A stretch of 64,000 nt of DNA from Thermocrinis albus DSM 14484 (GCF_000025605.1 NC_013894.1:1225529-1289528), one strand, 5' to 3'. Positions 30,703 through 54,085 are shown, numbered from the stretch's first letter. Notes: generated by a model from the letters alone, not told the origin. Program-made: numbers and translations.

Positions 30703-30796
30703 TTACCCGAGCACGTGTGTTGGCTCGGGTGCCGGGCTATTTGTAACGCGCCCTTTATGGGTGTCCAGAGACCCGGCAGGCGCCATTTGGACACCC
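30703..30796 (-). repeat. Structured leader element, copy 1 (upstream of hdrB2)
   Basis: Helix pairs on plus coordinates: P1 30759-30766/30789-30796 (GGGTGTCC/GGACACCC), P2 30731-30736/30772-30777 (GCCGGG/CCCGGC), P3 30748-30752/30779-30783 (GCGCC/GGCGC). All three cross each other. A terminal hairpin (30705-30730, ACCCGAGC/GCTCGGGT) lies 15 bases from the hdrB2 ATG. In the sense of hdrB2 it starts six bases after the hdrC2 stop. Confidence 0.8.
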
Positions 30797-30802
30797 TTTT
30801 TC

Positions 30803-31561
30803 TCATGTCAATGCTCCTTCTTCCTGCATAACTTTTCTCAAAACTTGTTTGAACCTGTTCCAGTTCTTGGTTCTAGGGTGGAACAGCATATGCTTAGCGT
30901 TCAGAACAAGGAAGCCTATGTTCATAGACTTGATGGGTTTTACAGTAAGTTGTTTGAGCCATTCGGGAGTCTCACCTATGAAGGGTATAGGCTTCTTAAG
31001 GATGGGATCCTTCACCACTTTGTAACCTTGTTTCTCAATCCAGCCAAACAGCAGCTCTCCATCTTCTATTCTACCGTACTCCAACACAGTTTCTGTAAAG
31101 AACTTATCGAACTTTTTAGAAGGATACTCATCTATCAGTCCTTTCTTGGCCATAACACGCAGTATGACCTTTAAGACCTCTTCCACGAGAACACCTTTGG
31201 GACATCTGTGAGTACACTTGTGACAGGAAACACACCTCCACATTACGTCTGCTCTCTTTTGAAGCTCATCTACCATTCCCAAACGAGCCAAATAGATGAA
31301 ATGTCTAGGATTGTAACGTTCGTCCCAGTAGTTGTGTACAGGACAGGATGCCGTACAGTAGGAACACTGATAGCAGTTAACTATCGTTTTACCATCGGGA
31401 GCGTTCATTACCTCCTTTGCAAAATCTAGATCGTAATCGTCTATAACCCTAGGTAGTATGATGAGGTTCCAATCACCTGAAACGTCCACACCGTCTATAA
31501 CCAACCTATCTTTTCTTAAGATCCTCTCAGGTTCTACCAAGCTCCTTTCGTGAATAGCCAT
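30803..31561 (-). CDS. hdrC2: Heterodisulfide reductase-like subunit C2 (sHdrC2)
   Basis: A 252-residue iron-sulfur protein with two [4Fe-4S] motifs: C63, C66, C69, C73 and C110, C113, C116, C120. It links electron flow between HdrA and HdrB2. An element copy precedes it and another follows it, so it can be expressed differently from its neighbours. Ribosome-binding site AAGGTG. Confidence 0.9.
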   Translation of the reverse strand: MAIHERSLVEPERILRKDRLVIDGVDVSGDWNLIILPRVIDDYDLDFAKEVMNAPDGKTIVNCYQCSYCTASCPVHNYWDERYNPRHFIYLARLGMVDELQKRADVMWRCVSCHKCTHRCPKGVLVEEVLKVILRVMAKKGLIDEYPSKKFDKFFTETVLEYGRIEDGELLFGWIEKQGYKVVKDPILKKPIPFIGETPEWLKQLTVKPIKSMNIGFLVLNAKHMLFHPRTKNWNRFKQVLRKVMQEEGALT

Positions 31562-31574
31562 GTCTCACACCTTA

Positions 31575-31669
31575 TTACCCGAGCACGTGTGTTGGCTCGG
31601 GTGCCGGGCTATTTGTAACGCGCCCTTTAATGGGTGTCCAGAGACCCGGCAGGCGCCATTTGGACACCC
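31575..31669 (-). repeat. Structured leader element, copy 2 (upstream of hdrC2)
   Basis: Nearly identical to copy 1 with one extra A in the linker before P1. P1 is 31632-31639/31662-31669. The terminal hairpin ends about 15 bases before the hdrC2 ATG. In sense orientation it begins six bases after the stop of the Hyp gene. Confidence 0.8.
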
Positions 31670-31675
31670 TTTTTC

Positions 31676-32416
31676 TCATGAGCCTACCTCCATAATCTCA
31701 TCCTTCCTCTGTACTCCCAGTAATCTTCTGGCCATAACTCCCGCAGGAGGGAAAAAGCCTTTAGCGCTGTGCATAGTAGAGAGTGTCATATAATCTACGT
31801 AAGTGGCGTATATCATAGCCAGGAATATGTCCACAAAGAGATAACCTCTTACCTTTATACCAAAGTCCTGAAGCTTTTCTTGTATCTGTCTGTATATCTG
31901 TTGAAACTCTTCGTAAGTTTCACCGTACATATGTCTTTTGGGAGGCTCTTCCTTAAGGAACACCACAGCACCACTCTCACTTTCAGGATCCCATATCCAA
32001 CTGGTCCACAGCACGTATTCCTCCGGGAAGGTGAAGTGAAGGAGCTCGGAAGCTAAGTCTCTCGCAGCTCTCCTATCTACCCCCCTTATCTCCTTCACAA
32101 ACTTCTCTACGCGCTCTTCCCAGCTGTCAGCTTTGCCATACAAGAGATCCGCAATGGCCTTCTTTAGTTTTTCTACACCAGTCTCCTCTAACAGTTTCTC
32201 CTTCTTTCTACGTACCGAGAATACCTTCTCCAGAACCTCCTTGAGTTCTTCCTCCGTAAGAGAAGGTAATTTCTCCCGCGCCAAGAGTTTCTGAAAGAGA
32301 AGGGACTTGGCGAGGAGGTCCTTGTAGAAGTTTTGAACGAACTCCTCGCCTTCTCCTAAGATCTTTATGAGGTAATCTCTCACCAAAAAGTCATCCAGTG
32401 TTGTTACTTTCTTCAT
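31676..32416 (-). CDS. sHdr-cluster conserved protein (Hyp)
   Basis: A 246-residue protein with no cofactor motif that I can see, mostly helical and charged, with a C-terminal hydrophobic stretch around VDIFLAMIYATYVDYM. Published sHdr clusters have a conserved gene called hyp between hdrA and hdrC2, and this has the same position. Start overlaps the hdrA stop (ATGA). Function unknown. Confidence 0.7.
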   Translation of the reverse strand: MKKVTTLDDFLVRDYLIKILGEGEEFVQNFYKDLLAKSLLFQKLLAREKLPSLTEEELKEVLEKVFSVRRKKEKLLEETGVEKLKKAIADLLYGKADSWEERVEKFVKEIRGVDRRAARDLASELLHFTFPEEYVLWTSWIWDPESESGAVVFLKEEPPKRHMYGETYEEFQQIYRQIQEKLQDFGIKVRGYLFVDIFLAMIYATYVDYMTLSTMHSAKGFFPPAGVMARRLLGVQRKDEIMEVGS

Positions 32417-33471
32417 ACCGTCACCTTTGCTCCTATGAAAGTGGCAGCTTCTGCCGCAGCAGCCTCACCTTCTGATAGAGAGGACTCTATATCTATGGGA
32501 CCTTTACATGCCCCTGCAATGAAGACTCCGGGTTTGTTGGATATTATGTTGGAACCTGATTCCTCAGAAGGTATGAGGAACTTGCTATCGGGATCCTGTG
32601 CAAGACCCAGTATCTTGGCCACCTTTTTGGTACCTTCGGATGGTTCCATACCCAGAACAAGTACCACCAGATCCATAGGCACTTCTGCGGGTCTCTGCAC
32701 TATGGTATCCTCGTGCTTCACTCTCAGTCTTCCGTCCGCCGGGCTATAGGTTATCTCCGCTATTCTACCTCTTACGTACCTTACACCGTACTTTTCTTGA
32801 GGAGCCCAGTAGAAGGGATACTCCCAAGTACCGTAGGTTCTTACGTCCATATAGTAGCAGAAGACTTCTACATCGGGATAGTGTTCCTTGATTTCAGAAC
32901 CTTGCAGACCGGAGAGAGCACAACCGTATCTGCAGCAGTGCACGTTGGTAACACCCAACTGCCTGTCTCTGGAGCCTACGCAGAAGACAAAGGCCACTCT
33001 CTTGGGAAGCTGTCCGTTGGAAGGTCTGTAAAGCCTACCTTCCCTAGAGAACATCTGCTCCAGCTCTAGGTTTGTGATAACGTCCGGATATATGCCGTAA
33101 CCTAACTCACCCTTTCTCCTAGGGTCAAAGTGCTGAAAACCGGTAGCCACTATTATGGCAGCCACTTCATGGGTTTCGCCGTTGGAGAGTCTTACCTTGT
33201 AAGCGCCGGGCTCTCCTTCACAGGCCTCCAGTTCCGTCTTGAGCTTTACCTGCACGTTGGGGTTGCTTTCCACTTCCTTGATGTAAGGTCCCAAGACCTG
33301 TGACGGTTTCAGCTTACGAGGTATGAGGGTGTGGTAATCTTCCAGGATGGGCCTTCCACCCAGTCTGTCCTCCTTCTCCACCAGGATGGTGGGAACGCCC
33401 AACCTTCCTAGGGTTCTCGCCGCAGCGAGACCAGCAGGACCACCACCTACCACTAGCACACTCTTAGCCAT
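32413..33471 (-). CDS. hdrA: Heterodisulfide reductase-like subunit A (sHdrA)
   Basis: A 352-residue flavoprotein with VVGGGPAGLAA (residues 7-17) for FAD and a CVGSRDRQ...HCCRYGC cysteine region for an iron-sulfur cluster. It is shorter than methanogen HdrA, as usual for sHdrA, and is the electron-handling core of the sulfur-oxidizing complex. A ribosome-binding site (AGGAGGTTAG) follows a hairpin at 33497-33513. Confidence 0.92.
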   Translation of the reverse strand: MAKSVLVVGGGPAGLAAARTLGRLGVPTILVEKEDRLGGRPILEDYHTLIPRKLKPSQVLGPYIKEVESNPNVQVKLKTELEACEGEPGAYKVRLSNGETHEVAAIIVATGFQHFDPRRKGELGYGIYPDVITNLELEQMFSREGRLYRPSNGQLPKRVAFVFCVGSRDRQLGVTNVHCCRYGCALSGLQGSEIKEHYPDVEVFCYYMDVRTYGTWEYPFYWAPQEKYGVRYVRGRIAEITYSPADGRLRVKHEDTIVQRPAEVPMDLVVLVLGMEPSEGTKKVAKILGLAQDPDSKFLIPSEESGSNIISNKPGVFIAGACKGPIDIESSLSEGEAAAAEAATFIGAKVTV

Positions 33472-33496
33472 ATCTAACCTCCTTTAGTGGTGTTAA

Positions 33497-33513
33497 GGGG
33501 CGCAGAGCGCCCC
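33497..33513 (-). other. Hairpin between hdrB1 and hdrA
   Basis: GGGGCGC, loop AGA, GCGCCCC gives a 7-bp perfect stem in the 49-bp gap. There is no T-tract on the coding strand, so it is more likely a message-stability or processing hairpin than a terminator. Confidence 0.45.
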
Positions 33514-33520
33514 AACCTTA

Positions 33521-34885
33521 TTACGACTTGAAGAGAGGCATGTTGGCTGTTGCCGAAGCCTTTGGCTTACCTGTGGAAGTTCTGCTGTAAGGTTCATACA
33601 GGTCGTACTCTTTGAAGAACTCCATCAGCTGGTCGTATTTACCGGCCTTTTCCAATTCAGCTATGTACTTAACAGTGTCTTCCCATTCCTTCTTCAGTTC
33701 TCTCCAGTTGGTTATACCCATCTTTTCCAGGAGAGGTTCATAAGAAGAGCAGTTCCAGTAAAGTTGGACCACTTTGAAGGGATGTGCACCACATGCCAAA
33801 GCAGCAAACATAACGTCAGACATGACAGCCACAGGATAGTACATGCCGTGGGCCTTACCTATCCACTGGTTCTTTTCAAAGGTGGTGGTGCAACCGGTGT
33901 CGTGGGTTATTATCACATCCGCCTTCACCTCTTCGTAGATGACCTTCAGCTTCCTCTGTATAGCAAAGGACCTTGTAAACTCACGCTCGGTGAGGATGTG
34001 TCTGAAACCAAAACCACAGCAGTCGTACCAGGTAGAGTAGTCTACTACCTGTGCACCCAGGGCTTGCATAACAGCCGTGGATGCAGCGGGTCTTTGACCG
34101 TTGAACACCTCAGGATCGTAGGGGTAGTCATCAGCTATCATCTTGTAAGTGTGGCATGCGTTGTGGATGGCCACCCTCACGTTAGAGACATCTATTCCTT
34201 TGGCCTTACCTTCCTTTTGATAGAGTTCCGCTATCCTGTATCTCATAGCGTGGACCCACTCGGAGTAGTGGACTATTTCTTGGGGTATGACAATCCTTCC
34301 ATCCTCCGTAAGTCTACCCAACTTCTTCAAAATAGGTTTTACGGCATCCCTAAGTTCCTTGTTCATTATGAGCTGTTCCCTCGTCTCTTTGTAGGAACCG
34401 AAGGAAGTTCCGCAGTGGATCAGAGGATAGTAACCTGTCTTCCAAGCTTGGTGCATGTTTCTCAGCCACACAGCTGCTAAAGCTACCGGGTTTGAAGTTC
34501 CTGATCCGTGATAGTTCCAAGCTGTACAAGAAGTTTGGTGAGGTTCGTTCAGGTAATCCAGACCGAACTTGTTCATGAACCAGAAGACGGATGCAGGATA
34601 GCCGGGTATGTTACCACACTGTCCACAGGACTTGTGATGCCACAGCTTGTTGGTGGGTATCAGCTTTATTCTACCCGTACGCGTGTACACGGGAACAGGT
34701 TGATGCTCCTCCGTTATCCTGTGAATGAGAATTTCACCCTTTGCTTCCAGCTCCTCCATCATTTCAAAGATGTGGTCGTAGTGGGCATCGTACTCCTTAA
34801 CGGGGAAGGGTGGTTCTTCAGGGTACCTCAGCAAGCCTCCGGGGCTCGTGTAACCCCATTTTGAATCTAACTTAGCGTGTCCCAT
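33521..34885 (-). CDS. hdrB1: Heterodisulfide reductase-like subunit B1 (sHdrB1)
   Basis: A 454-residue HdrB-type protein, longer than HdrB2 by an N-terminal extension of about 80 residues. Cysteine motifs include KSCGQCGN, HNACHTYK, YDCCGFGF, DTGCTT and WNCSSYEP. It should carry a non-cubane cluster and work with HdrC1. AGGAGGTG lies just upstream of ATG 34885. Confidence 0.88.
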   Translation of the reverse strand: MGHAKLDSKWGYTSPGGLLRYPEEPPFPVKEYDAHYDHIFEMMEELEAKGEILIHRITEEHQPVPVYTRTGRIKLIPTNKLWHHKSCGQCGNIPGYPASVFWFMNKFGLDYLNEPHQTSCTAWNYHGSGTSNPVALAAVWLRNMHQAWKTGYYPLIHCGTSFGSYKETREQLIMNKELRDAVKPILKKLGRLTEDGRIVIPQEIVHYSEWVHAMRYRIAELYQKEGKAKGIDVSNVRVAIHNACHTYKMIADDYPYDPEVFNGQRPAASTAVMQALGAQVVDYSTWYDCCGFGFRHILTEREFTRSFAIQRKLKVIYEEVKADVIITHDTGCTTTFEKNQWIGKAHGMYYPVAVMSDVMFAALACGAHPFKVVQLYWNCSSYEPLLEKMGITNWRELKKEWEDTVKYIAELEKAGKYDQLMEFFKEYDLYEPYSRTSTGKPKASATANMPLFKS

Positions 34886-34933
34886 GGTAACACCTCCTTA
34901 GTTTTTTTTGGGGCTTCAACCCCCTTCATAAGC

Positions 34934-35662
34934 TCACTCCTCTTCCGCATACAGCTCTTGGTATCTCTCTTCGTTCTCTTCCACTATGTCCATTATCACG
35001 TTGTAAAGGTTAGGATCCAGTTTTTCCAACATCTCAAATATTCCGGTCTCTCTCCATATGGTGTACATCTCTATAGCGGTTTCCAGAGAAACTTCCCATG
35101 CGGTCTTTACCGATTTACCCACGTCAAAGGGGATGGCCATACGTTTTGCCCTTAGGTTTTCCATGTTGTCGGCCATCTTTGGACCCCAGTCAGGGAAGAA
35201 GTCAGGCTGAAGCATGTCAGCGGAGAGCTGGTTACCCGTTGTCATCACCTTAAGGAGAACTCTTCCGTAAGGTTTCAGAAGGTCCTTGGTAGCTTCAAAG
35301 GCGTTCCTTACAGCCACTTCCCGCATTATGGCCACAAGACCACCGGGGTTATTAACGAAGGGACACCTTATCCAACAGGTGAAACACTGGGAACAGGCCC
35401 ATATGTATTCGTGCATCATATCGTAGAGGACCTCTACGTCCTCCTCCAGGAACCTCTGAACTATCTCTCTGGGAGAGTAGTCAAAAAACCTGTTGGATGG
35501 ACATGAGGCTGTACAAACACCGCAGTTGAGACATCCAAACAGGTACTCCTTAAACCGGAAGTCCGACTTTACTTCCTCTATGACCCTTACCTTCTCTTCC
35601 CAAGGCACCGCCTTGGTTTTCTCTGATATAGGTATGTTATACCCATAAGGGTGTCCTTCCAT
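34934..35662 (-). CDS. hdrC1: Heterodisulfide reductase-like subunit C1 (sHdrC1)
   Basis: A 242-residue iron-sulfur protein with two [4Fe-4S] motifs: C44, C47, C50, C54 and C90, C93, C96, C100. ATG 35662 follows GGAGGTTTAGCC and is preferred over an in-frame start ten codons upstream. It opens the C1-B1-A-Hyp-C2-B2 order known from other sHdr clusters. Confidence 0.9.
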   Translation of the reverse strand: MEGHPYGYNIPISEKTKAVPWEEKVRVIEEVKSDFRFKEYLFGCLNCGVCTASCPSNRFFDYSPREIVQRFLEEDVEVLYDMMHEYIWACSQCFTCWIRCPFVNNPGGLVAIMREVAVRNAFEATKDLLKPYGRVLLKVMTTGNQLSADMLQPDFFPDWGPKMADNMENLRAKRMAIPFDVGKSVKTAWEVSLETAIEMYTIWRETGIFEMLEKLDPNLYNVIMDIVEENEERYQELYAEEE

Positions 35663-35778
35663 GGCTAAACCTCCTACAAGTTCCTGTTTCACAATTTATG
35701 CACTTCCTCATAAAAGAACTTAAATTTTTCTTATGTATATATAAGCATGAGCTTATAAAGGACCACCAAAAGAGGGCT
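35663..35778 (-). other. 116-bp spacer between dsrE-like gene and hdrC1
   Basis: AT-rich. It contains CTTATGTATATATAAG (plus 35729-35744), an inverted repeat CTTAT/ATAAG. This could be an operator or part of an internal promoter for hdrC1, but I see no convincing -35/-10 pair. Confidence 0.35.
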
Positions 35779-36195
35779 TCAGAGGGTAATAACAGCATAC
35801 TCACCACTCATAAGCTTATCCAAGAAAGCGGCACCACCTATGATACCGTCACAGAGTTCCGGGTTCACATCCTCTTTCTTATACACGTCAGTAAGGTCCA
35901 AAGATGGCACGCAGAGGTATATCTTCACACCGGCCTCCTTAGCCATCTTAATAAAGTCATAAACCGTCTGCTCTACACCTGGCCTCACTTTCACCTTTTT
36001 GGCGTTGTCCCTCATGAGCAGGAATCCTGCCTCTGAAGTTATGACCATCTCCACCTCGTAATCCATAGTGGTGGCTGCTGTGGCTAAAAAGAAGGGTGCA
36101 CCTGCCTGAGGGTTTATGAGCTCTCCTGTTGTGGGTTCTGCTCGCTCAAAGAAAGGTACCGTGAGGATGTAAAAGAGCAGCTTTTCGTACGCCAT
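35779..36195 (-). CDS. DsrE-like protein of the sHdr cluster
   Basis: A 138-residue protein of DsrE-like fold. C95 in KIYLCVPSLD is at the usual active position. It has an unusual proline-rich N-terminal segment (FFERAEPTTGELINPQAGAP). Start: ATG 36195, placed by the same AGGTG-to-ATG spacing seen before hfq; GTG 36204 is an alternative. It is preceded by a structured leader element. Confidence 0.7.
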   Translation of the reverse strand: MAYEKLLFYILTVPFFERAEPTTGELINPQAGAPFFLATAATTMDYEVEMVITSEAGFLLMRDNAKKVKVRPGVEQTVYDFIKMAKEAGVKIYLCVPSLDLTDVYKKEDVNPELCDGIIGGAAFLDKLMSGEYAVITL

Positions 36196-36208
36196 ACCTC
36201 CCACCTGT

Positions 36209-36309
36209 GTTACCCAAGCTGTGCAAACTCACACAGCTCAGGTGCGGGGGTATTTGTATACCGCCTTTTTAGGGTGTCCATGGCCCCCGCAGGCGGTATT
36301 TGGACACCC
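36209..36309 (-). repeat. Structured leader element, copy 3 (upstream of dsrE-like gene)
   Basis: P1 GGGTGTCC/GGACACCC (second strand 36302-36309) is kept, but P2 is GCGGGGG/CCCCCGC and P3 is TACCGCCT/AGGCGGTA, both changed in a paired way from copies 1 and 2. The terminal hairpin has 12 pairs only if read as RNA in the sense of the downstream gene, where two positions become G-U. It begins one base after the upstream stop. Confidence 0.8.
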
Positions 36310-36310
36310 T

Positions 36311-36844
36311 TCAAACGAAGATTACCATCGGCTTATCAGCTTCCAATACGTAATTGATAAAGGTGGCTGCTCCTGCCGGAGGCTCCAAACCGTCTATGAG
36401 GTCCTCGTACTTGTATCCGAAGAGTTCCATAGTCATTTGGCAGGGGATGAGCTTTACATCAGCCTCCTTGCAAGCTTCTAAGAGCTCTGGTATGCTGGCA
36501 ACACCGTGTTCTTTTAAGGTTTTCTTCATCATGTAAGTCATAAGATCCGTCATTCCCGGTATCACACCCATTATCTGTGGAGGTCCGGGAAACACCGAAG
36601 AGATGAGGTTGGTAACAGAATTCTGCATGGAGGGTGGGAAGGCCATGGGCATGGCAGGGTTTCCAAGGGGCGCTATCTTAAGTTCGTGCATCTTCTTCTT
36701 GTGGATTATGTTGAGACCGTAGAAGGTGAAGAATATGGCCGTCTCGATACCTAGGGATGCCGCTGTGGAAGCCAATATGAGGGGCGGATAGGCCATGTCC
36801 AGCGTTCCTTTAGTGGCTATTATGGCGAGCCTTTCGGTGGCCAT
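36311..36844 (-). CDS. dsrE3A: DsrE/DsrF/DrsH-like protein (DsrE3A type)
   Basis: A 177-residue protein of the DsrE3 group: start RLAIIATKGTLDMAYPPLIL, a Pro/Met-rich middle, and C135 in KLIPCQMTMELFG. DsrE3A works with TusA to move sulfane sulfur toward sHdr. It lies 12 bases after tusA. Confidence 0.87.
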   Translation of the reverse strand: MATERLAIIATKGTLDMAYPPLILASTAASLGIETAIFFTFYGLNIIHKKKMHELKIAPLGNPAMPMAFPPSMQNSVTNLISSVFPGPPQIMGVIPGMTDLMTYMMKKTLKEHGVASIPELLEACKEADVKLIPCQMTMELFGYKYEDLIDGLEPPAGAATFINYVLEADKPMVIFV

Positions 36845-36856
36845 TTCTCTCCTCCC

Positions 36857-37093
36857 TCACTTTTTCTGAATATAGAATATTATCTTACCTCCCTCTTCCA
36901 CCACTTCCAGAAGTTGATGACCTGTTCTGTTGCAGAAGGCGGGTATGTCCGCTTTAGCTCCTGGGTCTGTGGTTATCACCTCCAGCACCTGTCCGGACTG
37001 CAGCTCCTCCAGCGCTTTTTTGGTCTTCAAAACAGGAAGAGGACAGTTAAGACCTGAAGCGTCCAGTGTCTTGTGGGGTGTTACAGTAGCCAT
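36857..37093 (-). CDS. tusA: TusA sulfur carrier protein
   Basis: A 78-residue protein with the TusA motif DASGLNCPLPVLKTKKAL; C17 carries the persulfide. Length is normal. It is the first gene of the sHdr operon, with AAAGGAGGTAGAGCG before ATG and a good promoter upstream. It would receive sulfur from a rhodanese or transferase and hand it to DsrE3A. Confidence 0.93.
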   Translation of the reverse strand: MATVTPHKTLDASGLNCPLPVLKTKKALEELQSGQVLEVITTDPGAKADIPAFCNRTGHQLLEVVEEGGKIIFYIQKK

Positions 37094-37129
37094 CGCTCTA
37101 CCTCCTTTAAAAGTTCCTAAGCAATTCTT

Positions 37130-37158
37130 ATTATATCCTCCTACCTGTTCTATGTCAT
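37130..37158 (-). promoter_or_regulatory. Promoter of the sHdr operon
   Basis: On the minus strand ATGACA (37158-37153) and TATAAT (37135-37130) are 17 bp apart. The start would be near 37123, about 30 bases before tusA. Confidence 0.65.
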
Positions 37159-37210
37159 TAATTTTCTTTATAGCTTTTTAAGATATCCTTATATAATAGT
37201 GGGAGGTACC

Positions 37211-38140
37211 ATGCGTACAGGTTTCCTCTATGACGACATTTATCTGGAACATAACAACAGAGGCCATCCGGAAAACAAAGATAGGTTAATAGCTATAATG
37301 CAAGGATTGGAAAGTAGGAGGCTGTTCCAGAAGGTGGTGAAAGTAAGACCCCGTAGGGCCACCGTTCAGGAGGTCTCTCTAAACCATGACCTCGCATACA
37401 TTCAGGAGATACACGATTTTTGTGCAGCGGGGGGCGGGTATCTGGATCCTGACACCTACGCTAACGCCATGTCTTACGAGGTAGCGTTATACGCCGTAGG
37501 CGGTGTTTTGGAGGGTATAGATAGGTTGCTGAATGGTGAACTGGAGGCGGTTTTCTGTGCCGTAAGACCTCCCGGACATCACGCGGAACGTTCAAAAGCT
37601 ATGGGTTTCTGCATATTTAACAACGTGGCGGTGGGAGCTCACTATCTTATCAACAGGGGTATTAAGAAGGTGTTCATCATAGACTTTGATGCCCACCACG
37701 GTAACGGAACTCAGCGCAGTTTTTATGAAGATGATAGGGTGTTTTACTTTTCCACTCACGAGTATCCCTTCTATCCAGGGACTGGCTCAGCAGATGAAAG
37801 AGGTGCCGGTAGGGGGTACGGTTTTACTTACAACGTTCCCATGAAGGCCGGTGCCGGAGACGAAGAGTATCTTAGGGTGTACAAGGAAATCTTACCTGCC
37901 TTGGTAAAGGACTTCAAACCGGAGTTTCTCTTAGTTTCCGCCGGATACGATCTACACAAAGATGACCCTCTCACTTACCTTGATGTCACCACAGAGGGAA
38001 TAAGGGAGATAGTGAGTAGCATAGTGAATGTATCTAAAGCCCTCTCCATACCGTTGCTACTGGCTTTGGAGGGTGGTTATAACCTCAGAGTGCTGTCAGA
38101 ATGCGTAGCAGATACACTGGAGATACTACTGGAGGCCTGA
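37211..38140 (+). CDS. Histone deacetylase/AcuC-family hydrolase
   Basis: A 309-residue Zn-dependent deacylase. Zn and catalytic motifs: RPPGHHAE, FNNVAVGA, DFDAHHGNGTQ and SAGYDLHKDDPL. Bacterial relatives deacetylate acetyl-CoA synthetase, polyamines or other small molecules. ATG 37211 follows GGGAGGT; the TATAAT at 37192-37197 would give a leader of only a few bases. Target unknown. Confidence 0.9.
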   Translation: MRTGFLYDDIYLEHNNRGHPENKDRLIAIMQGLESRRLFQKVVKVRPRRATVQEVSLNHDLAYIQEIHDFCAAGGGYLDPDTYANAMSYEVALYAVGGVLEGIDRLLNGELEAVFCAVRPPGHHAERSKAMGFCIFNNVAVGAHYLINRGIKKVFIIDFDAHHGNGTQRSFYEDDRVFYFSTHEYPFYPGTGSADERGAGRGYGFTYNVPMKAGAGDEEYLRVYKEILPALVKDFKPEFLLVSAGYDLHKDDPLTYLDVTTEGIREIVSSIVNVSKALSIPLLLALEGGYNLRVLSECVADTLEILLEA

Positions 38141-38141
38141 T

Positions 38142-38345
38142 GTGGGCAAGATAAAACATTACCTTTGGCAGTTTTTCAGCTTTCTGTTAGCAGCGTACGG
38201 TTTCTATCTATTGTTCCTGCTTCTGTGGGATACCTTCTTACGCATAAACAGAACCATGGCCCTACCACTATCTTTGGGAATAACTCTGTCACTGGTACTG
38301 GCAACCCTAGTTTACTATTTGAAGAAGGGTAAGCTTCCTCTTTAG
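38142..38345 (+). CDS. Small membrane protein, two helices
   Basis: A 67-residue protein with two hydrophobic segments (about residues 9-29 and 39-59), short basic ends and a GTG start one base after the HDAC-like stop. I do not recognise it. Confidence 0.55.
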   Translation: MGKIKHYLWQFFSFLLAAYGFYLLFLLLWDTFLRINRTMALPLSLGITLSLVLATLVYYLKKGKLPL

Positions 38346-38346
38346 T

Positions 38347-38355
38347 TGGTATAAT
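38347..38355 (+). promoter_or_regulatory. Extended -10 promoter of rpsU
   Basis: TGGTATAAT is an extended -10 box without a clear -35. The start is expected at about 38362, which coincides with the 5' end of the structured leader element. Confidence 0.55.
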
Positions 38356-38363
38356 AAGTATGT

Positions 38364-38458
38364 GGGTACCCAAATGCCGCCTGCTGGGGACTGGGTACCT
38401 TTAAAAAGGCGGGATACAAATACCCCAGCCCCGAGCTGTGCTTTAACAGTGGCTCGGG
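38364..38458 (+). repeat. Structured leader element, copy 4 (upstream of rpsU)
   Basis: P1 here is GGTACCCA (38365-38372)/TGGGTACC (38392-38399), different in sequence from the other five copies but still paired. P2 is GCTGGGG/CCCCAGC and P3 is CCGCCT/AGGCGG. The terminal hairpin CCCGAGC/GCTCGGG ends at 38458, followed by AAGGTGAG. This copy is on the plus strand because rpsU is. Confidence 0.8.
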
Positions 38459-38473
38459 AAGAAGGTGAGTGCT

Positions 38474-38674
38474 TTGGCTATAGTAGTAGTAGGAGATAAC
38501 GAGTCCTTCGAGAAGGTTCTTAAGAAGTTTAAGAGAGTGGTGGAGAAAGAGGGTATACTGACGGAGGTAAGGAGAAGGCAGTTCTACGAAAAGCCCAGCG
38601 AGAAGAGAAAGAGGAAGGAGAGGGCTGCCCGTAAGAGGATAATTAAGGCCCTCAAGAAGCGGAACCTTCTTTAA
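38474..38674 (+). CDS. rpsU: Ribosomal protein bS21
   Basis: A 66-residue S21 protein starting [13 protein letters not shown], with a very basic C-terminal half ([12 protein letters not shown]). I choose TTG 38474, which fits S21 N-termini and follows AAGGTGAG; GTG 38465 is within that ribosome-binding site. The end overlaps the convergent PilZ gene by 23 bp. Confidence 0.9.
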
Positions 38675-39701: not shown

Positions 39702-39712
39702 TTAACTTAAAT

Positions 39713-40971: not shown

Positions 40972-40983
40972 AATCTCACCCTG

Positions 40984-41075
40984 TTACCCGAACCATCCAT
41001 GTTCGGGTGCCGGGCTATTTGTAACGCGCCCTTCAATGGGTGTCCAGATACCCGGCAGGCGCCATTTGGACACCC
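40984..41075 (-). repeat. Structured leader element, copy 5 (upstream of trxA)
   Basis: Core as copies 1 and 2 (P1 41038-41045/41068-41075). The terminal hairpin is ACCCGAAC/GTTCGGGT instead of ACCCGAGC/GCTCGGGT, a compensatory change. It lies between the arsR stop and trxA. Confidence 0.8.
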
Positions 41076-42945: not shown

Positions 42946-44370
<1,425 letters not shown>

Positions 44371-44372
44371 CT

Positions 44373-44807: not shown

Positions 44808-44842
44808 GGCTATCACCTCCTTATAAGGTTTTCTATTAAGAA

Positions 44843-46245: not shown

Positions 46246-46266
46246 GACACCCTCCGGAAAAAGAAG

Positions 46267-46272
46267 TATATT
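46267..46272 (+). promoter_or_regulatory. -10 box of prfB, nearly leaderless
   Basis: TATATT ends eight bases before the prfB ATG. No ribosome-binding site can be seen between them and no clear -35. Confidence 0.4.
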
Positions 46273-46280
46273 TAAATTTT

Positions 46281-47399
46281 ATGCTGAACGAGATAAGAAC
46301 AAAGCTGGAGGAACTTACGGAGAGGTTCGAGGAGGTAAAGGAGAGTCTAAAACTGGACAGTATGAAGGAGGAGCTGAAGGAGTTAGACAATCTGATGGCC
46401 TCTTCCCACATATGGAACCAACAGGAGAAAGCCAAGAAGATACTACAGAGACGTAAGTGGCTTGAGGAAAACATACAGCAACTGGAAGCTACCGAGAAAG
46501 TTCTGTCGGATATAAGAGAACTGCTGCATATCACGGAGGAGGAAGATCTTGAGACCCAAACTCTCCTGAAGGAAGAACTTGAGAAGGCGGAGCAGATGAT
46601 AAAGGATATGGAGATAAGAGCCTTTCTGTCAGGGGAGATGGATGCCAAGAACGCCTACCTCACCATACAGGCGGGTGCCGGTGGTGTGGAAGCCTGCGAT
46701 TGGGCTCAGATGTTGCTGCGTATGTACAGGAGATGGGCTGAGAAACACGGCTACGAAGTGGAAGTGGTGGACATAACACCTGATGATGTGGCCGGTATAA
46801 AGAGTGCCACCCTTCTCATCAAGGGTCCTTACGCTTACGGGTATCTGAAGGGAGAGAGTGGTGTTCACAGACTGGTGAGAATATCTCCCTTTGATGCCAA
46901 CGCACGGAGACACACATCCTTTGCATCTGTGACGGTGGTTCCTCAGATAGACGAGAGCATAAACATAGAGATAAGGGAAGAGGATATAGAGATGGAGACC
47001 TTCAGGGCCAGCGGTGCTGGAGGGCAGTATGTTAACAAAACGGACACGGCCGTAAGGATCCGCCACAAACCCACAGGTATAGTGGTCACATGTCAGCAGG
47101 AAAGATCCCAGTACCAGAACAGAATGAAGGCTCTGGAGCTCCTTAAAGCAAAACTGTATCAACTGAAACTTCAGGAACTGGAAGAAAAAAAGAGGGCTCT
47201 TGAGGGGGAAAAGACCGAGATAGGTTGGGGTCATCAGATAAGATCTTATGTGTTTCAACCTTACCAGTTGGTGAAAGATCTACGCACCGGAGTGGAGATA
47301 GGAGATGTGGAGTCTGTTATGGACGGTGAGATAGATCCCTTCATAGAGGCCTACCTAAGATGGAAGGCAAAACAAGAGGCTCAGGCCAGTAAGACATGA
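46281..47399 (+). CDS. prfB: Peptide chain release factor 2
   Basis: A 372-residue class I release factor. It has the GGQ loop in [16 protein letters not shown] and SPF in [12 protein letters not shown], the tripeptide that reads UGA/UAA. It is uninterrupted from ATG, so the programmed +1 frameshift known in many bacteria is absent. Its message appears to have almost no leader. Confidence 0.96.
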
Positions 47400-47815
47400 A
47401 ACTTTTAGGTTTTCTCTCAGGCATATCCTGCGCCTTCGGCGCCGCCTTCTGTATAAAGACAGAAACCACTTACCCAGATCCCTATCTGTACCAAACAGTT
47501 CTAAGGACGGTGGAGAGGGCTGTTTTGGAAAGTGGGGAAAGTTTGAGCTGTGGTGAAGGCTCTCAACCGATGAGAGTGTCCGTGCTGGAGTTTCAGGATA
47601 TACCAGTAGGGTACTCTCCCTTTCAGAGGGTGAACGCCTACACTCTTAAGCTTACTTTACTTTTAGAAACCAAAGATATGAAGAGGGCCTTTTCTGCCGT
47701 GACCACTTACAGTCTACCCGATGGTTCCAGGGGGGACCTGCCCCGCAGGAGCGCGTTAGACAGTCTTATGACTATAATATATCCTGATATTCTAAACTCC
47801 CTTATAAGGAGGTAG
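47396..47815 (+). CDS. Hypothetical exported protein (possibly LptE-like)
   Basis: A 139-residue protein with a short hydrophobic N-terminus ([17 protein letters not shown]) that could be a signal or lipoprotein signal. The middle has a beta-rich stretch [20 protein letters not shown] resembling the LPS-assembly lipoprotein LptE in pattern only. It overlaps prfB by four bases. Confidence 0.5.
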
Positions 47816-47818
47816 ACC

Positions 47819-48199
47819 ATGCTGATAAATTACGAAACCACCAAAAGCGTGGAAGATGTGGTCAAAGTGTTGGAGGAGAAGGCCAAGAGCTTAGGTTTTG
47901 GTGTTATGGCGGTGCATCATGTGTCTCAGATTCTCAGCAACAAGGGTGTTCCCATAGATTACCAGTGTGTGATAGTGGAGGTGTGTTCTCCTCGTCACGC
48001 CAGTCAGGTTCTTACCAAGAACCCCTACATATCCACAGCCATGCCCTGTAGGATCTCCGTGTTCCAAAAGGACGGAAAAACGGTTATCAGTACAATGGCT
48101 CCCACCGCCATGCTGGAGGTGTTTAATGAACCGGAACTTAAGCCCGTGGCAGAAGAAGTAGAAAAACTGATGAAAGAGATCCTGGAAGCTGCGGTGTGA
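47819..48199 (+). CDS. DUF302 family protein
   Basis: A 126-residue protein with the DUF302 pattern: KSVEDVVKVLEEKAKSLGFGV, abridged here to KSVEDVVKVLEE, then EVCSPRHASQVL and MPCRISVFQKDG. Some members bind metals or are linked to sulfur metabolism; function unknown. AAGGAGGTAGACC precedes ATG. Confidence 0.8.
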   Translation: MLINYETTKSVEDVVKVLEEKAKSLGFGVMAVHHVSQILSNKGVPIDYQCVIVEVCSPRHASQVLTKNPYISTAMPCRISVFQKDGKTVISTMAPTAMLEVFNEPELKPVAEEVEKLMKEILEAAV

Positions 48200-49284
48200 T
48201 ATCCTATCGGGATATCTATTTTATGGGCCGGGCCTTGGAACTGGCTCGGCTTAGGAAAGGACTCACACACCCTAACCCTACTGTGGGTTGTGTTGTTGTC
48301 AAAGATGGTAAGATAATCTCAGAAGGTTATCACGAGAGAGCCGGAGCTCCTCATGCGGAGGTGGTTGCTCTCAGTAAAGCCGGGCAGAACGCAAAAGACT
48401 CCACTCTCTATGTCACCCTTGAACCTTGTTCCCACTACGGTAGAACTCCACCCTGTACCAACGCTATCATAGAAGCAGGCGTGAAACGGGTGGTGGTGGC
48501 TACCCTCGATCCTAACCCGAAAGTGATGGGGTCAGGTATAGAAAGACTGAGGGCTGCAGGCATACAGGTGGACGTAGGTGTCCTTGAAGAAGAGGCAAGA
48601 CAACTAAACGAGGACTTCTTTGTTTACATAACTCAGAACAGACCTTACATAACCCTCAAGTGGGCTCAGAGCATAGATGGTTCTTTGGCTACAAAAACGG
48701 GAGATAGTAAGTGGATCACTTCAAGAGAAAGCAGAGAGTTTGCTCACAGACTGCGAGCGGAGGCCACCGCTATACTGGTGGGGGTAAACACTGTCGTAAA
48801 GGATGACCCTCTGCTGACGGTGAGGGCCTTTCTGTGGGAGAGACAACCCATACGTGTAGTTCTTGACCCTTACTTGAGAACACCTCTTCAGGCCAACTTG
48901 ATGGTGGATACTTCTGCAAAGACTATCCTTGTTACATGCTCTCAAAAGGAGGATAAGGTCAAAAAGCTGGAAGATATGGGTGTAAGTGTTGTAAAGGCTG
49001 AGTGTGTGAAGGGCAGGGTAGATCTACGGTGGCTGATGAGATGGATGCACCAACAGGAGATCATGCATCTGATGGTAGAAGGAGGGGCAAGAACCCTGGA
49101 AGGTTTCATAGAAGAGGGTCTCTGGGACAGGATAGTGGTGTTTTTGGGACCACTCCTGATAGGTAACGGGATTAGAGTGAGATCTCCCGGTGCGGAAAAA
49201 CTGATGGATGCTATCCCTTTACGAAAGAGAAGGCTGTGGCAGTTGGGGGAGGACGTGGCCATAGAGTACACAAGAGCCTACTGA
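48196..49284 (+). CDS. ribD: Riboflavin biosynthesis deaminase/reductase
   Basis: A 362-residue bifunctional enzyme. The N-terminal deaminase has APHAEVVAL and EPCSHYGRTPPC (Zn site). The C-terminal reductase has TLKWAQSIDGSLATKTG and MVEGGARTLEGF. It makes the pyrimidine precursor of riboflavin. GTG start overlaps the DUF302 stop (GTGA). Confidence 0.94.
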   Translation: MISYRDIYFMGRALELARLRKGLTHPNPTVGCVVVKDGKIISEGYHERAGAPHAEVVALSKAGQNAKDSTLYVTLEPCSHYGRTPPCTNAIIEAGVKRVVVATLDPNPKVMGSGIERLRAAGIQVDVGVLEEEARQLNEDFFVYITQNRPYITLKWAQSIDGSLATKTGDSKWITSRESREFAHRLRAEATAILVGVNTVVKDDPLLTVRAFLWERQPIRVVLDPYLRTPLQANLMVDTSAKTILVTCSQKEDKVKKLEDMGVSVVKAECVKGRVDLRWLMRWMHQQEIMHLMVEGGARTLEGFIEEGLWDRIVVFLGPLLIGNGIRVRSPGAEKLMDAIPLRKRRLWQLGEDVAIEYTRAY

Positions 49285-51047
49285 AGCTCCTTGTGTATAC
49301 CCGCTATGTAGATACCTTCTACGATACGGCGAGCTATAGGGGCTGCAGCAGATCCTCCCGATGCACCGTGCTCCACCAGAACACCCACTATGAAGAGAGG
49401 GTCTCTGTAAGGAGCAAAACCTACAAACCAAGCGTGATCTCTCAGATGATAAGGAACGTTTTTTCGGCCTCTCGTATAGGGAGAAACCTGGGCTGTGCCT
49501 GTCTTACCTGCTATCTCTGCTATAGATGAGTTGGCTGATACAGCGGTACCTGATCTTACCACTTCCCTCATAGCCTCTCTCACCACCGCAAACACTTCCG
49601 GTCTCATCTTTACCACTTTGTAGACGGTCCTCTTATTACTCCAAAGTACTCTCCCGTTTACATCCCTCACCTCTTTAAGGAGAGTGGGTTTGTAAATGAC
49701 ACCATCGTTGGCCACAGCCATCACCATAAGACACTGTTGTAGAAGAGTAGCCCGCATAAAACCTTGACCTATGGACATGTTGATGGTATCACCTCCGTAC
49801 CACGGCTCACCCATCTTTCTCTTCTTCCACTGGGGAGAAGGAATAAAACCCGTAGCGTTGGGGAGCTCAAAGGGAACCCTTTCACCTAGAGAGAAATCTC
49901 TCAGAATTCTCTCCATTTTGTTAGGTCCCAAAGTGTAGTAACCATGGTGGTAAAAGAATACGTCACATGAATCTCTCACGGCGCGTACCACGTTCTCCCA
50001 ACCGTGTCCGTGCCTGTTCCAGCAGTAAAAGTCCCTGTCTCCAAGATGAAATTTCCCCTTACACAGAACACCCTCTCTGAGAGAGAGCCCCTCCTCCAAA
50101 AGGCCACAGGCGTAAGCCACCTTGATAACGGAGGCAGGAGGATAAGCAGCCATCAGAGCTCTGTTAAACATAGGTTTAAGAGGATCCTTAGCATAATCCT
50201 CCCACTTCTCCGAAACGAGGTTAGGATCGTAAGAGGGCATGCTTACGAGGGCCAACACCTCTCCCGTTCTGGCGTTGAGAACTAATACGGCTCCAGCTTT
50301 GTGCCCAGATTCCTTGAAGGTGTTATAGGCTATCTCCTGTATCCGGCTGTCTATAGTGAGAACCAAGGTGTTGCCGGGTACAGGCTCCACATCCCTTATT
50401 TTTCCTAGAACCTTACCTACCGCGTTCACCATCACATCCTCTCTCCCTACGTATCCCAGCAGGATACTCTCCATACTTCTCTCTAACCCGCTTTTACCCA
50501 CCAAGCTCTGTGGTCCTATTCTGTCGGCATAACGTTTCATTTCCTCCTCGGAAGGGTATCCCACATAACCCAGAAGGTGGGCGGCCATCTCACCGAAAGG
50601 GTAATATCTCTGAGGTACAGTGTTGACAAAAACACCCGGTAGTCTAAAGCTGTTGTTGTAAAAGGAGTTAAGTTCCTCAGGGGTCAGTTTCTTAATGTAA
50701 ATAGGTTGAGCACCACCTCTTCTCTTAAGGAGATTCTCTTCTTCTATATCAAGCTGGAAGATCTCTTTGAGGTTCCTCACCAGCTCCCGTAGTGTGTCTC
50801 TCTCATCCAGAACCTGAGGGTCAATAAACATAACGTACTGAGGTAGATCGTAAGCCAGTTTTACCCCATTTCTGTCCAGTATGTCCCCTCTTCTGGCGTA
50901 TACGATCCTTGATCTGACGTAGTTTCTATGAGAGAGCTCCCTGTAGTAGGTACCCTTTATCAGCTGAAGGTACAACAGACGGCCCAGTATGGTTATGTAC
51001 AGGATGATGCTCAGCATAGCAAACAGGAACGTCCTACGTCTCACCAC
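49278..51047 (-). CDS. mrdA: Penicillin-binding protein 2
   Basis: A 589-residue elongation transpeptidase with an N-terminal membrane helix, a dimer domain and a transpeptidase domain. Active-site motifs: SVIK in PPASVIKVAY, SCD in VRDSCDVFF, and KTG in AGKTGTAQV. It is last in mreB-mreC-mreD-mrdA, the rod-shape operon. Confidence 0.95.
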   Translation of the reverse strand: MVRRRTFLFAMLSIILYITILGRLLYLQLIKGTYYRELSHRNYVRSRIVYARRGDILDRNGVKLAYDLPQYVMFIDPQVLDERDTLRELVRNLKEIFQLDIEEENLLKRRGGAQPIYIKKLTPEELNSFYNNSFRLPGVFVNTVPQRYYPFGEMAAHLLGYVGYPSEEEMKRYADRIGPQSLVGKSGLERSMESILLGYVGREDVMVNAVGKVLGKIRDVEPVPGNTLVLTIDSRIQEIAYNTFKESGHKAGAVLVLNARTGEVLALVSMPSYDPNLVSEKWEDYAKDPLKPMFNRALMAAYPPASVIKVAYACGLLEEGLSLREGVLCKGKFHLGDRDFYCWNRHGHGWENVVRAVRDSCDVFFYHHGYYTLGPNKMERILRDFSLGERVPFELPNATGFIPSPQWKKRKMGEPWYGGDTINMSIGQGFMRATLLQQCLMVMAVANDGVIYKPTLLKEVRDVNGRVLWSNKRTVYKVVKMRPEVFAVVREAMREVVRSGTAVSANSSIAEIAGKTGTAQVSPYTRGRKNVPYHLRDHAWFVGFAPYRDPLFIVGVLVEHGASGGSAAAPIARRIVEGIYIAGIHKELQ

Positions 51048-51486
51048 GGTAGGAGATATAACGATAAGTGTAAAGGAGGAATAACATTTCCAGGCCTATC
51101 TGCAAAGCTATTCGGGATAAGCTGAGAGGATAGTAATACTTTATGCGGAACAGAGAGAGGCGAAGGAAGTGCTCCATGAGACTCATCATAAGATAAACTA
51201 GTATAAAAGTATACCTGTCCAAAAGGAACACCCTACTCTTGACTACATCTATCATCATAAGGAAGAAGGTCTTCCCTGCTATGTGCCAACCGAGGGAGTC
51301 CTGAAGAATGTCCAAAAAAAGACCGGACATGATGCCCTTCCTGTACTCTACTCTTTCCAAAAAAACTGTATGGGTATACAGAACAACCAGCACAAAATCC
51401 GGAACGTAAAGATAACTACCCATCAGGGGTACCATAACAGAACTCTGAAGGAAAGCGATAAGAAAAACTACCCAATAAAACTTCAT
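51034..51486 (-). CDS. mreD: Rod shape-determining protein MreD
   Basis: A 150-residue inner-membrane protein with about five helices. MreD proteins vary, so the call rests on size, topology, the GLFLDILQD segment and its place between mreC and mrdA. It overlaps both. Confidence 0.85.
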   Translation of the reverse strand: MKFYWVVFLIAFLQSSVMVPLMGSYLYVPDFVLVVLYTHTVFLERVEYRKGIMSGLFLDILQDSLGWHIAGKTFFLMMIDVVKSRVFLLDRYTFILVYLMMSLMEHFLRLSLFRIKYYYPLSLSRIALQIGLEMLFLLYTYRYISYRGET

Positions 51487-52274
51487 GGTCTTACCTTTAT
51501 CACTACCACGTAGTCTATGGATTTTATTCTGGCGTAAGGTTTCACGTAAACTTTTCTAAAAAACTGTCCAGAAGGTGGACCTACTTGGTTTATCACTCCT
51601 ATTCTCAGGGCTGGTGTCTGGGCATCGCTTCCTCTGAGCAGTACCTCCTGTCCTGTCTGTAGATTGTCCTCCTGCCTCACGTGTAGTAACTCTCCTATAG
51701 GAAACCCACCTTTGTAAGGGTAGTTGGTATCACCTACCGTAGCACTGAGGGTAAAGTCTCCCGAATAAACGGTTCTTACACGGGCACTACTGGTATAAAC
51801 TTTGTCCAGAAAGCCCACCAGTAGGTCCTGGTATGCTACAATATAACCTTCCTCTAGACCATCGGCTTTCCCTTTGTCAAGCACCAAGAAGGTGTCCATA
51901 CCAGAAGGATCGTATGCCACTACATGTGCGTACACTAAGCCATGACGGGAGTAATCTACGTTATTGATCTTTAGTAAAGAGGCAAGTTGGTGGTAATCTT
52001 TTAAACAACTACGCAGAGCAGCTCTGTCTAAGTATAGTTCCGTTATCTCCTTTCTGAGTTTTTGGTTCTCCTTCTTCACATCCACGAGATTTAAGTAAGT
52101 GTTCCAGATATCTTCTACACCTTTTTCCACACGAGCCTTAAGCTGGAGAAGAGGTACAAGAAGGGGGTCGGTAATGTAGTGTACGTATCTACCAACGGAA
52201 GCTCCCAAAAGATAAAGGGCCAACGATGAAAGAAAAAAAGAAAAACAGCTAGATATCTCCTCATTCCATGGCAA
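51483..52274 (-). CDS. mreC: Rod shape-determining protein MreC
   Basis: A 263-residue protein with one N-terminal membrane helix, a coiled coil (about residues 55-85) and two beta-barrel domains with ARVRTVYSGDFTLSATVG. It links cytoplasmic MreB to PBP2. It overlaps mreB by 14 bases. Confidence 0.9.
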   Translation of the reverse strand: MPWNEEISSCFSFFLSSLALYLLGASVGRYVHYITDPLLVPLLQLKARVEKGVEDIWNTYLNLVDVKKENQKLRKEITELYLDRAALRSCLKDYHQLASLLKINNVDYSRHGLVYAHVVAYDPSGMDTFLVLDKGKADGLEEGYIVAYQDLLVGFLDKVYTSSARVRTVYSGDFTLSATVGDTNYPYKGGFPIGELLHVRQEDNLQTGQEVLLRGSDAQTPALRIGVINQVGPPSGQFFRKVYVKPYARIKSIDYVVVIKVRP

Positions 52275-53277
52275 CCTTCCTTATCAGATCCAGTTTATCC
52301 AGCACGAGACCCACACCTCTGGCCACCGCGGTGAGGGGATCCTCACAGTATCTTGCATCTATACCTGTTTCCCTTTTTACACGCACGTCCATGTTTCGGA
52401 GGAGAGAACCACCCCCCGCCAGTACTATACCCCTGTCCGCTATATCAGAAGCCAACTCCGGTGGCGTTTTCTCCAACGTGCCTCTTATAGCGTTTATTAT
52501 GGCATTGATGACATCCTCAAGAGCTTCTGTAATATCCCTGTTGGTGACACGTATAGTCTTCGGAAGGCCCGTCATATCCCTTCCCCTTATTTCCATCTCT
52601 CTCTCATCATCCTCCATTATGGCACTTCCTAGTTCAACCTTAATTTTTTCAGCGGTCTGCTCTCCTATCAGAAGGTGAAACCTCTTCTTTATGTACTGTA
52701 TTATCGCCTCTGTCATCTCGTCCCCCGCTATCCTTATGGAAGTGGATACCACTATTCCCGCCAGTGATATAACAGCTATCTCGGTAGTTCCACCCCCTAT
52801 GTCCACTATCATGTTACCTACCGGTTCCTCTACTGGAAGGCCAGCTCCCAGAGCTGCAGCCATAGGCTCCGCGATGAGGAAGACCTCCCTAGCGCCTGCG
52901 CTTTTTGCAGCATCCAGAACGGCCCTTTTCTCCACTTGCGTAACGCCAGAAGGCACACCTATCACCACCCGTGGTTTTGGTTTCAATATACCACTCCCCA
53001 AAGCCTTCCTTATAAAGTAAGACAGCATGACCTTTGTGGCCTCAAAATCGGTGATGACACCGTCCTTGAGAGGCCTTATGGTCTGAATGTGTTCGGGCGT
53101 CTTACCCAGCATCTCCTTGGCTTCTTTCCCTACCGCCAGCACCTTTCCGGTGCGAGTGTCTATAGACACTATGGAAGGTTCGTAAAGAACTATGCCCTTA
53201 CCTTCCATATACACAACGGTGTTGGCGGTACCCAAGTCTATACCGAGGTTGTTGGAGAATATTCCCAACAGCTTCAT
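52261..53277 (-). CDS. mreB: Rod shape-determining protein MreB
   Basis: A 338-residue bacterial actin. It shows NLGIDLGTANT at the N-terminus, IGVPSGVT, DIGGGTTEIAVIS and LAGGGSLL phosphate-binding motifs. ATG 53277 follows AAAGGGG; two upstream in-frame ATGs are less likely. A TATAAT lies upstream. Confidence 0.95.
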   Translation of the reverse strand: MKLLGIFSNNLGIDLGTANTVVYMEGKGIVLYEPSIVSIDTRTGKVLAVGKEAKEMLGKTPEHIQTIRPLKDGVITDFEATKVMLSYFIRKALGSGILKPKPRVVIGVPSGVTQVEKRAVLDAAKSAGAREVFLIAEPMAAALGAGLPVEEPVGNMIVDIGGGTTEIAVISLAGIVVSTSIRIAGDEMTEAIIQYIKKRFHLLIGEQTAEKIKVELGSAIMEDDEREMEIRGRDMTGLPKTIRVTNRDITEALEDVINAIINAIRGTLEKTPPELASDIADRGIVLAGGGSLLRNMDVRVKRETGIDARYCEDPLTAVARGVGLVLDKLDLIRKVAME

Positions 53278-53390
53278 TATCCCCTTTAACATAACAGGTA
53301 TTATAATGCCTTTGACCTGTATCATAGAAGCTTTCGGCTTTGTTTGGTAGAATTGTATGAGACAAAGACAAAGAAAAGGAGGTGTGAAGG

Positions 53391-53723
53391 ATGCAGTTTA
53401 GACACGTGTTTGTGTGTGTACAGCAGAGACCCCCAGGACATCCTATGGGATCCTGTTCCGACAGAGGCAGCAGGGATGTTCTTCAGCGCCTTATGGAGAA
53501 GGTACAGTTTGATCCCGAACTCTTTATGAGCACCATGGTCACACCTACAGGTTGTCTGAACGCCTGTGGTGCTGGACCTATTGTGGTGGTATACCCAGAG
53601 GGAGTGTGGTACGGCAACGTGAGACCTGAGGACGTGGATGAGATAGTGGAGAAACACCTTAAGGGTAATGAACCTGTAGAAAGGCTTGTTCTTTCAAAGG
53701 GAAAGCCACCGGGTATGTTTTAA
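53391..53723 (+). CDS. Thioredoxin-like [2Fe-2S] ferredoxin
   Basis: A 110-residue protein with cluster ligands C9, C22, C55 and C59, the spacing I recall for the structurally known Aquifex ferredoxin. It belongs to the thioredoxin-fold ferredoxins related to the NuoE subunit. AAAGGAGG precedes ATG, and TGGTAGAAT at about 53346-53354 may be its -10. Confidence 0.93.
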   Translation: MQFRHVFVCVQQRPPGHPMGSCSDRGSRDVLQRLMEKVQFDPELFMSTMVTPTGCLNACGAGPIVVVYPEGVWYGNVRPEDVDEIVEKHLKGNEPVERLVLSKGKPPGMF

Positions 53724-53735
53724 AAGGGCAGGGTT

Positions 53736-53978
53736 TCACGCCTGCCCCGGTACTCCTTCCTCTTCGAACTCTATCTCCATACGCTCCGCTGGGATTATAG
53801 TGCTTATGGCGTGTTTGTACACAAGGATCTGCTGTCTTCCGTCCTCCAGCAGTATGGTGTATATGTCGAAGGACCTTACTCTTCCCTGTAACCTCACGCC
53901 ATTTATTAGATACACAGTGAGTTTGATCCTCCTCTTTCTCGCAGTGTTAAGGAAGGCTTCCTGCAGTTTGTAAGGCAT
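53736..53978 (-). CDS. hfq: RNA chaperone Hfq
   Basis: An 80-residue Sm-like hexamer protein. Sm1 motif is [21 protein letters not shown] in short form [10 protein letters not shown], and Sm2 is YKHAIST. Start ATG 53978 follows AGGTGAGG; an open frame seven codons longer would use the leader element. It binds small RNAs and A-rich RNA. Confidence 0.94.
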
Positions 53979-53992
53979 CCTCCTCACCTGAT

Positions 53993-54085
53993 AACCCAAG
54001 CTGCTTTACACAGCTCGGGGCTGGGGTATTTATATCCCGCCTTTTGTGGGTGTCCACATCCCCAGCAGGCGGCATTTGGACACCC
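53993..54085 (-). repeat. Structured leader element, copy 6 (upstream of hfq)
   Basis: P1 GGGTGTCC/GGACACCC (second strand 54078-54085), P2 GCTGGGG/CCCCAGC, P3 CCGCCT/AGGCGG. The terminal hairpin CCCGAGCTG/CAGCTTGGG has one G-U when read as RNA in the hfq sense. It begins exactly at the stop codon of the upstream ADP-ribosylglycohydrolase gene. Confidence 0.8.

Follow-up and report, generated by a model that had tools for sequence, protein, structure and literature searches.

What are the structured RNA leaders that recur in front of apparently unrelated genes of the hot-spring bacterium Thermocrinis albus DSM 14484, and where do they come from? The stretch analysed here, called the window, comprises 64,000 nucleotides (nt) of the chromosome (GCF_000025605.1, NC_013894.1:1225529-1289528). 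An earlier note made from its sequence had reported six copies of a leader, at 30703, 31575, 36209, 38364, 40984 and 53993, with three helices that cross one another in the order A-B-C-A'-B'-C'. All six are present, each in sense orientation 5' of a gene, five on the minus strand and one on the plus strand; the motif P1a-AAAT-P3a-T-P2a occurs six times in the window versus 0.01 times expected from shuffles. The order of parts had also been read correctly in 6/6 copies: P1a-AAAT-P3a-(1 nt)-P2a-loop-P1b-loop-P3b-TAYAAATA-P2b, then a hairpin, P4, and the ribosome-binding site. The interpretation as a conserved leader structure stands as far as it goes, but it missed the link to transposons. In IS607-family TnpB elements, the right end contains the 72-nt core as well, and the leader is therefore most probably transposon-derived. 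We consider it likely that the six leaders represent the distal domain of such a right end, that is, a domain of TnpB guide RNA exapted as a leader of housekeeping genes.

The three mutually crossing helices, P1, P3 and P2, are real, since compensatory changes occur in all of them. Among 125 unique copies, the ten strongest column pairs, out of 2,628, all belong to the helices (seven to P1, two to P2 and one to P3), and their scores are not reached in 100 tree-aware nulls. The covariation check that the note had proposed for P2 and P3 places pairs of both helices in the top ten. In an alignment of 64 of the 125 sequences, standard pairs occupy 87.7% of the cells, versus 40-49% once the partners are shifted by 1-3 columns. 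Compensation is strong in P1 and P2, in P2 at several positions in matches found without imposing P2 or P3 as structure (GTTGGGG/CCCCAAC, GTCAGGG/CCCTGAC, GCCGTGG/CCACGG, GCTGGAG/CTCCAGC and GGTGGGT/GCCCACC). Because the inner part of P3 (CGCC/GGCG) stays unchanged, also in matches from the model without P2 or P3 structure, the evidence for this helix is mainly one swapping pair, the fifth, together with weaker outer pairs. The fifth pair exchanges C-G for G-C (93 versus 32 sequences) with zero exceptions. It must be noted that CGCC, GGCG and parts of P2 were prescribed by the pattern used to select copies, and their invariance is thus partly by construction.

Do the helices coexist or alternate? 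The linkers are near-fixed (about 1 nt between P3a and P2a, 8 nt between P3b and P2b, 0 nt between P2b and P4), and all three helices persist in the 74 unique sequences linked to transposons as well as in the 159 solo ones. For these reasons we favour, on sequence evidence, one compact fold over a three-state switch. Taken singly, the helices add up to about -36 to -41 kcal/mol (37°C), versus -22 to -29 for the most stable nested fold that the core can form, loop costs not being counted. P4, directly 3' of P2b, varies in sequence between copies while the hairpin is retained; it is absent in some copies of other genomes, and in these the distance from P2b to the start codon is usually 17-20 nt.

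The element yields zero matches in Rfam 15 at gathering and relaxed thresholds, in agreement with the note. Its topology, which the note took to be undescribed, is in fact known. The ABCABC arrangement is reported from 51 RNA STRAND sequences as the 'pseudotrefoil' (PMC3390330) and is named the 'triple knot' (PMC4885603). The likeness to these RNAs is one of topology, namely the A-B-C-A'-B'-C' order common to both. The main text of Lechner et al. 2014 on Aquificales non-coding RNAs, including its section on novel ones, does not describe the element.

The link to transposons emerges from other genomes, many of which carry, 5' of the core, a module ending CYTGG-NN-YRGG-RN-CTATG. All but 4 of the ~73 module matches in the phylum run directly into a core; three of these 4 look unrelated, and the fourth is a copy from which the core has been deleted. 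The module is coding sequence for a C-terminal extension of TnpB, and the tnpB frame continues through the core. An intron or IStron, considered for the 5' module, was rejected on this account. Transposon-linked copies lie directly 3' of, or overlap, an IS607-type tnpB. The linked nuclease matches TIGR01765 and TIGR01766 above cut-off, and the tnpA gene that adjoins some modules on their 5' side encodes an IS607 transposase (NF033518, 223.7 bits versus a cut-off of 110). Right ends with this core are known from Aquificota, from thermophilic Firmicutes and from further phyla, and the linked form is conserved across Firmicutes and Aquificota. Among the matches listed, this right end is seen in Thermoanaerobacter, Caldanaerobacter, Thermovorax, Fervidicola and others, while a few single matches (Demequina, Pimelobacter) look like chance; outside Aquificota the survey gives a lower bound, at least the matches listed. 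In one element (L234, genome G110) the tnpB frame ends early, at NPAYTW, and is fused directly to the core.

The layout of an intact right end resembles that of a guide RNA. It consists of a stem-loop in the tnpB tail (loop C(C/T)TGG), the core with P1, P3 and P2, hairpin P4, the end T(A/G/T)ACCAGG and then host sequence in the guide position. The loop CYTGG is complementary to the terminal CCAGG in 48/49 copies. Three same-family TnpB elements, L279-L281 (genomes G006, G003 and G012), have no core, and in two of them, L280 and L281, the bases are exchanged: a CCAGG loop faces a CCTGG end, a reciprocal compensatory change. In known TnpB guide RNAs, a stem-loop pairs through its loop with the bases flanking the guide (PMC10097598, PMC10711439), and IS607 elements are characterised by a GG crossover, a required loop-to-guide-flank pseudoknot and target-adjacent motifs (TAMs) such as AGGAG (PMC10711439, PMC11061315). 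Because the CCAGG end can pair with the loop, as in the pseudoknot that such RNAs require, the core is most likely, by analogy, a part of the guide-RNA (omegaRNA/reRNA) scaffold.

Right-end RNAs of other IS607 TnpB elements (the ISXfa1 reRNA and the RAGATH-18 reRNA of ISFba1) share the position 3' of tnpB, the loop-to-guide-flank pseudoknot, a hairpin before the guide and a G-rich target (PMC10711439, PMC11061315). They differ from the present RNA in its 72-nt triple-crossing core without an Rfam match, its overlap with the tnpB frame and its solo copies that serve as leaders. The ISDra2 TnpB omegaRNA likewise has a stem 1 with a pseudoknot loop, inner stems, a terminal stem 4, a pseudoknot strand and the guide (PMC10097598); its stems 2 and 3 are nested, whereas three mutually crossing helices occupy that place here. 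An undescribed type of right-end RNA with a rare knot topology is thereby added to the TnpB/Cas12 lineage.

Where the elements insert bears directly on how one could precede a gene. Their left ends read GGAGG or GGTGG followed by AACAGTTG, and a GGAGG or GGTGG stands before the left end in 14/21 cases by motif. At the GAPDH gene, two sister genomes have the empty site AAGGAGG (or CAGGAGG)-AATATTT-ATG, and G110 has an element ending CCAGG-AATATTT-ATG. This comparison, together with the GG recombination and G-rich TAMs, places the terminal CCAGG where the Shine-Dalgarno (SD) sequence was. The elements thus insert into SD sequences, and CCAGG replaces the SD that is lost. That they bring a replacement ribosome-binding site is the likely reason why such elements can precede essential genes.

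In T. albus no such transposon remains. TnpB of this family was found 0 times in the genome, which holds 35 cores, TnpA not having been searched for. The T. albus copies keep the core, P4 and the ribosome-binding site; the loop motif 5' of P1a, present in 88/96 linked copies, is found in 3/167 solo copies and in 1/34 T. albus copies, all the others of which therefore lack the pseudoknot partner. Having neither this partner nor a tnpB gene, the window copies are, on such sequence features, best taken as derivatives of IS607 right-end RNA rather than working guide RNAs. A different OrfB/TnpB family is represented in T. albus by five intact genes that are nearly identical (G000:C1 331302, 350955, 638641, 725205 and 796737) and have the short conserved 3' end GGGGTAGTTCAC. 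A role of the leaders as guide RNAs for these five genes was rejected, their 3' ends being without the core. All helices are still paired in the solo copies, which argues that these would have a function without the nuclease.

Relatives lack two of the window leaders. At hdrC, a plain SD is found in 10/10 genomes of relatives, and a core at hdrC or hdrB in 0/10; the leaders of both genes were therefore gained in the T. albus lineage. A complete transposon landing 5' of an older leader was rejected as the explanation, as the module is almost never without the core and sister genomes have plain SDs. A leader-first course of events, in which an ancient structured 5' leader that bound a protein or a ligand was later captured by IS607 TnpB right ends, appears unlikely to us. 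It would accommodate the excess of solo over linked copies in the sampled set (167 versus 96), in several phyla, the compensated structure kept where TnpB of the family is absent, and the fact that sister TnpB elements can do without the core. However, P4 and the TGACC(A/T)GG end are also found in coreless TnpB right ends, so this part of the leader is transposon-native. The acquisition of the hdrC and hdrB leaders within T. albus and the conservation of the linked form over Firmicutes and Aquificota also speak against an old host leader. Descent from transposon to leader is thus the direction that we favour, short of proof.

Several observations weigh against this direction. The core is missing from same-family TnpB elements of sister Thermocrinis species and from one of G012, and is therefore not indispensable for the element; the transposon could conceivably have captured it from an older leader. 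A remnant of the left end survives in only one T. albus copy, L020 (GGAGG plus a left-end-like stretch, which taken by itself could be chance), and in the solo copies TAACCAGG has for the most part been eroded (12/159 strict), so that the descent of solo copies from complete elements is indirect.

A related question is whether solo units still move, as small non-autonomous elements mobilised in trans. We regard this as improbable. About a dozen T. albus copies have a near-identical core, and in L020 an SD, the left-end-like stretch and the core follow one another within ~40 nt; yet copies whose cores are identical have different hairpins and flanks, a left end is found in only 1/165 solos, and the genome yielded no TnpB of the family, TnpA not having been searched for. 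The near-identical cores (loci L001-L011) agree also in P1 and loop positions that are free to vary, while P4 and the flanks differ; they may reflect homogenisation of the core only or recent spread.

The six window copies are a sample of the 35 in the T. albus genome (1,500,577 bp; PMC3035279). A genome survey with a covariance model that had only P1 as structure gave these 35 and matches in 100/136 Aquificota genomes and 27/30 genera; the element is found across the Aquificaceae. Other Thermocrinis species have 0 or 1 copy each. All 35 T. albus copies are in sense orientation 5' of an open frame, with a median gap of 14 nt between P4 and the start codon. Their targets, several of which are named by sequence only, include hdrC, hdrB, a DsrE-like gene, rpsU, trxA, hfq, rpsK, rpsR, rpsT and rpoA, as well as tsf, infC, rho, ftsH, ppa, ndk, nuoB, glyA, ilvC, rplY, rpmF, metE and others. 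There are two hfq genes (L015 and L022), both with a leader.

This list bears on the idea of a riboswitch or feedback leader, in which the helices would be alternative states switched by a metabolite, an ion or a protein to control translation. The many translation genes (rpsK, rpsR, rpsT, rpsU, rplY, rpmF, tsf, infC), the location just 5' of the ribosome-binding site and the strongly conserved linkers AAAT and TAYAARTA are what such a leader might show. However, the 35 downstream genes share no common pathway, which leaves metabolite sensing unsupported, and a metabolite riboswitch was rejected in view of this diversity. Moreover, the SD lies outside every core helix, the near-fixed linkers fit simultaneous helices, and this core is also present in a transposon end. 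Control by switching of any of these kinds has, in our estimation, a low probability.

A -10-like box lies within 21 nt 5' of P1a in 10 T. albus copies, and most of the remaining copies start ~20 nt or less past the stop codon of the upstream gene; the leader therefore fills almost the whole untranslated stretch. Such an arrangement, with a compact multi-helix knot at the 5' end or, in the many operon copies that begin <20 nt from the upstream stop, after an intercistronic cut, might block 5'-to-3' decay in the manner of exoribonuclease-resistant RNAs. This would be a possible exapted role rather than a rival origin, and one that we find rather doubtful. Transcript protection and regulation are both possible roles; most likely, the unit would provide its gene with a 5' end that is folded and a ribosome-binding site that is free.

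A transposon-derived leader can be accommodated in the following model. The element would insert into an SD, and its terminal CCAGG would act as a replacement, so that essential host genes could tolerate the insertion. Loss of the nuclease gene and of the 5' part would then have left T. albus with ~35 minimal units (core, P4 and SD) as 5' leaders of housekeeping genes. Because the pairing partner of the pseudoknot would be lost as well, the SD would become free. The compact knot and hairpin would probably protect or insulate the 5' end and present the ribosome-binding site at high temperature. In its boldest form, to which we give somewhat less than an even chance, the model describes an SD-targeting transposon in which the guide-RNA domain is knotted and its 3' pairing strand is also the new ribosome-binding site, so that guide folding and host translation would compete; after loss of the nuclease, this domain would have become, throughout the genome, a general 5' leader that controls dozens of essential genes.

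TldR proteins are related to TnpB. In TldR systems, RNA-guided transcription factors, TnpB-type guide machinery has likewise been reused for gene control (PMC13418256), but there protein and guide are both kept, whereas here the RNA has persisted and the protein has been lost. The copies range from complete transposons to stripped leaders, a natural series in which it can be tested how a host reuses a guide-RNA domain. The helices are compensated enough for direct mutational tests, and the thermophilic forms suit structural work.

In the window, copies 1 and 2 precede genes on the minus strand. The core of copy 1 (30731..30796; P1a at 30796..30789, end of P2b at 30731) and its P4 (30705..30730), followed by the ribosome-binding region AACAGG, form the leader of an hdrB-like gene (CoB-CoM heterodisulfide reductase B-like, start 30690). 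Copy 2 (core 31603..31669, P4 31577..31602, then AATAAGG) leads into the hdrC-like gene (start 31561), which has the plain SD in relatives. The hdrC leader (31560-31690, minus) has its 5' end in common with the hdrB leader (30680-30810, minus). In the latter, a short open frame, ATGAGAAAAAGG..., begins just 5' of P1a, crosses the core and passes the gene start; it is possibly a leader peptide, or chance. Also on the minus strand, copy 3 (core 36244..36309, P4 36212..36243) precedes the DsrE-like gene (ATG ~36195), copy 5 (core 41009..41075, P4 40986..41008, then AACAGG) precedes trxA (thioredoxin, start 40971), and copy 6 (core 54020..54085, P4 53995..54019) precedes hfq (ATG ~53978). A preQ1-riboswitch-like match at 34892-34929 on this strand is below threshold (21.7 bits, cut-off 39, E 0.92) and is probably chance. 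Copy 4, on the plus strand (core 38364..38429, P4 38430..38458), carries the P1 variant GGGTACCC and is the leader of rpsU (ribosomal protein S21, open reading frame 38465-38674). A TATAAT box at 38350..38355, 8 nt 5' of P1a, predicts that its transcript starts at about P1a.

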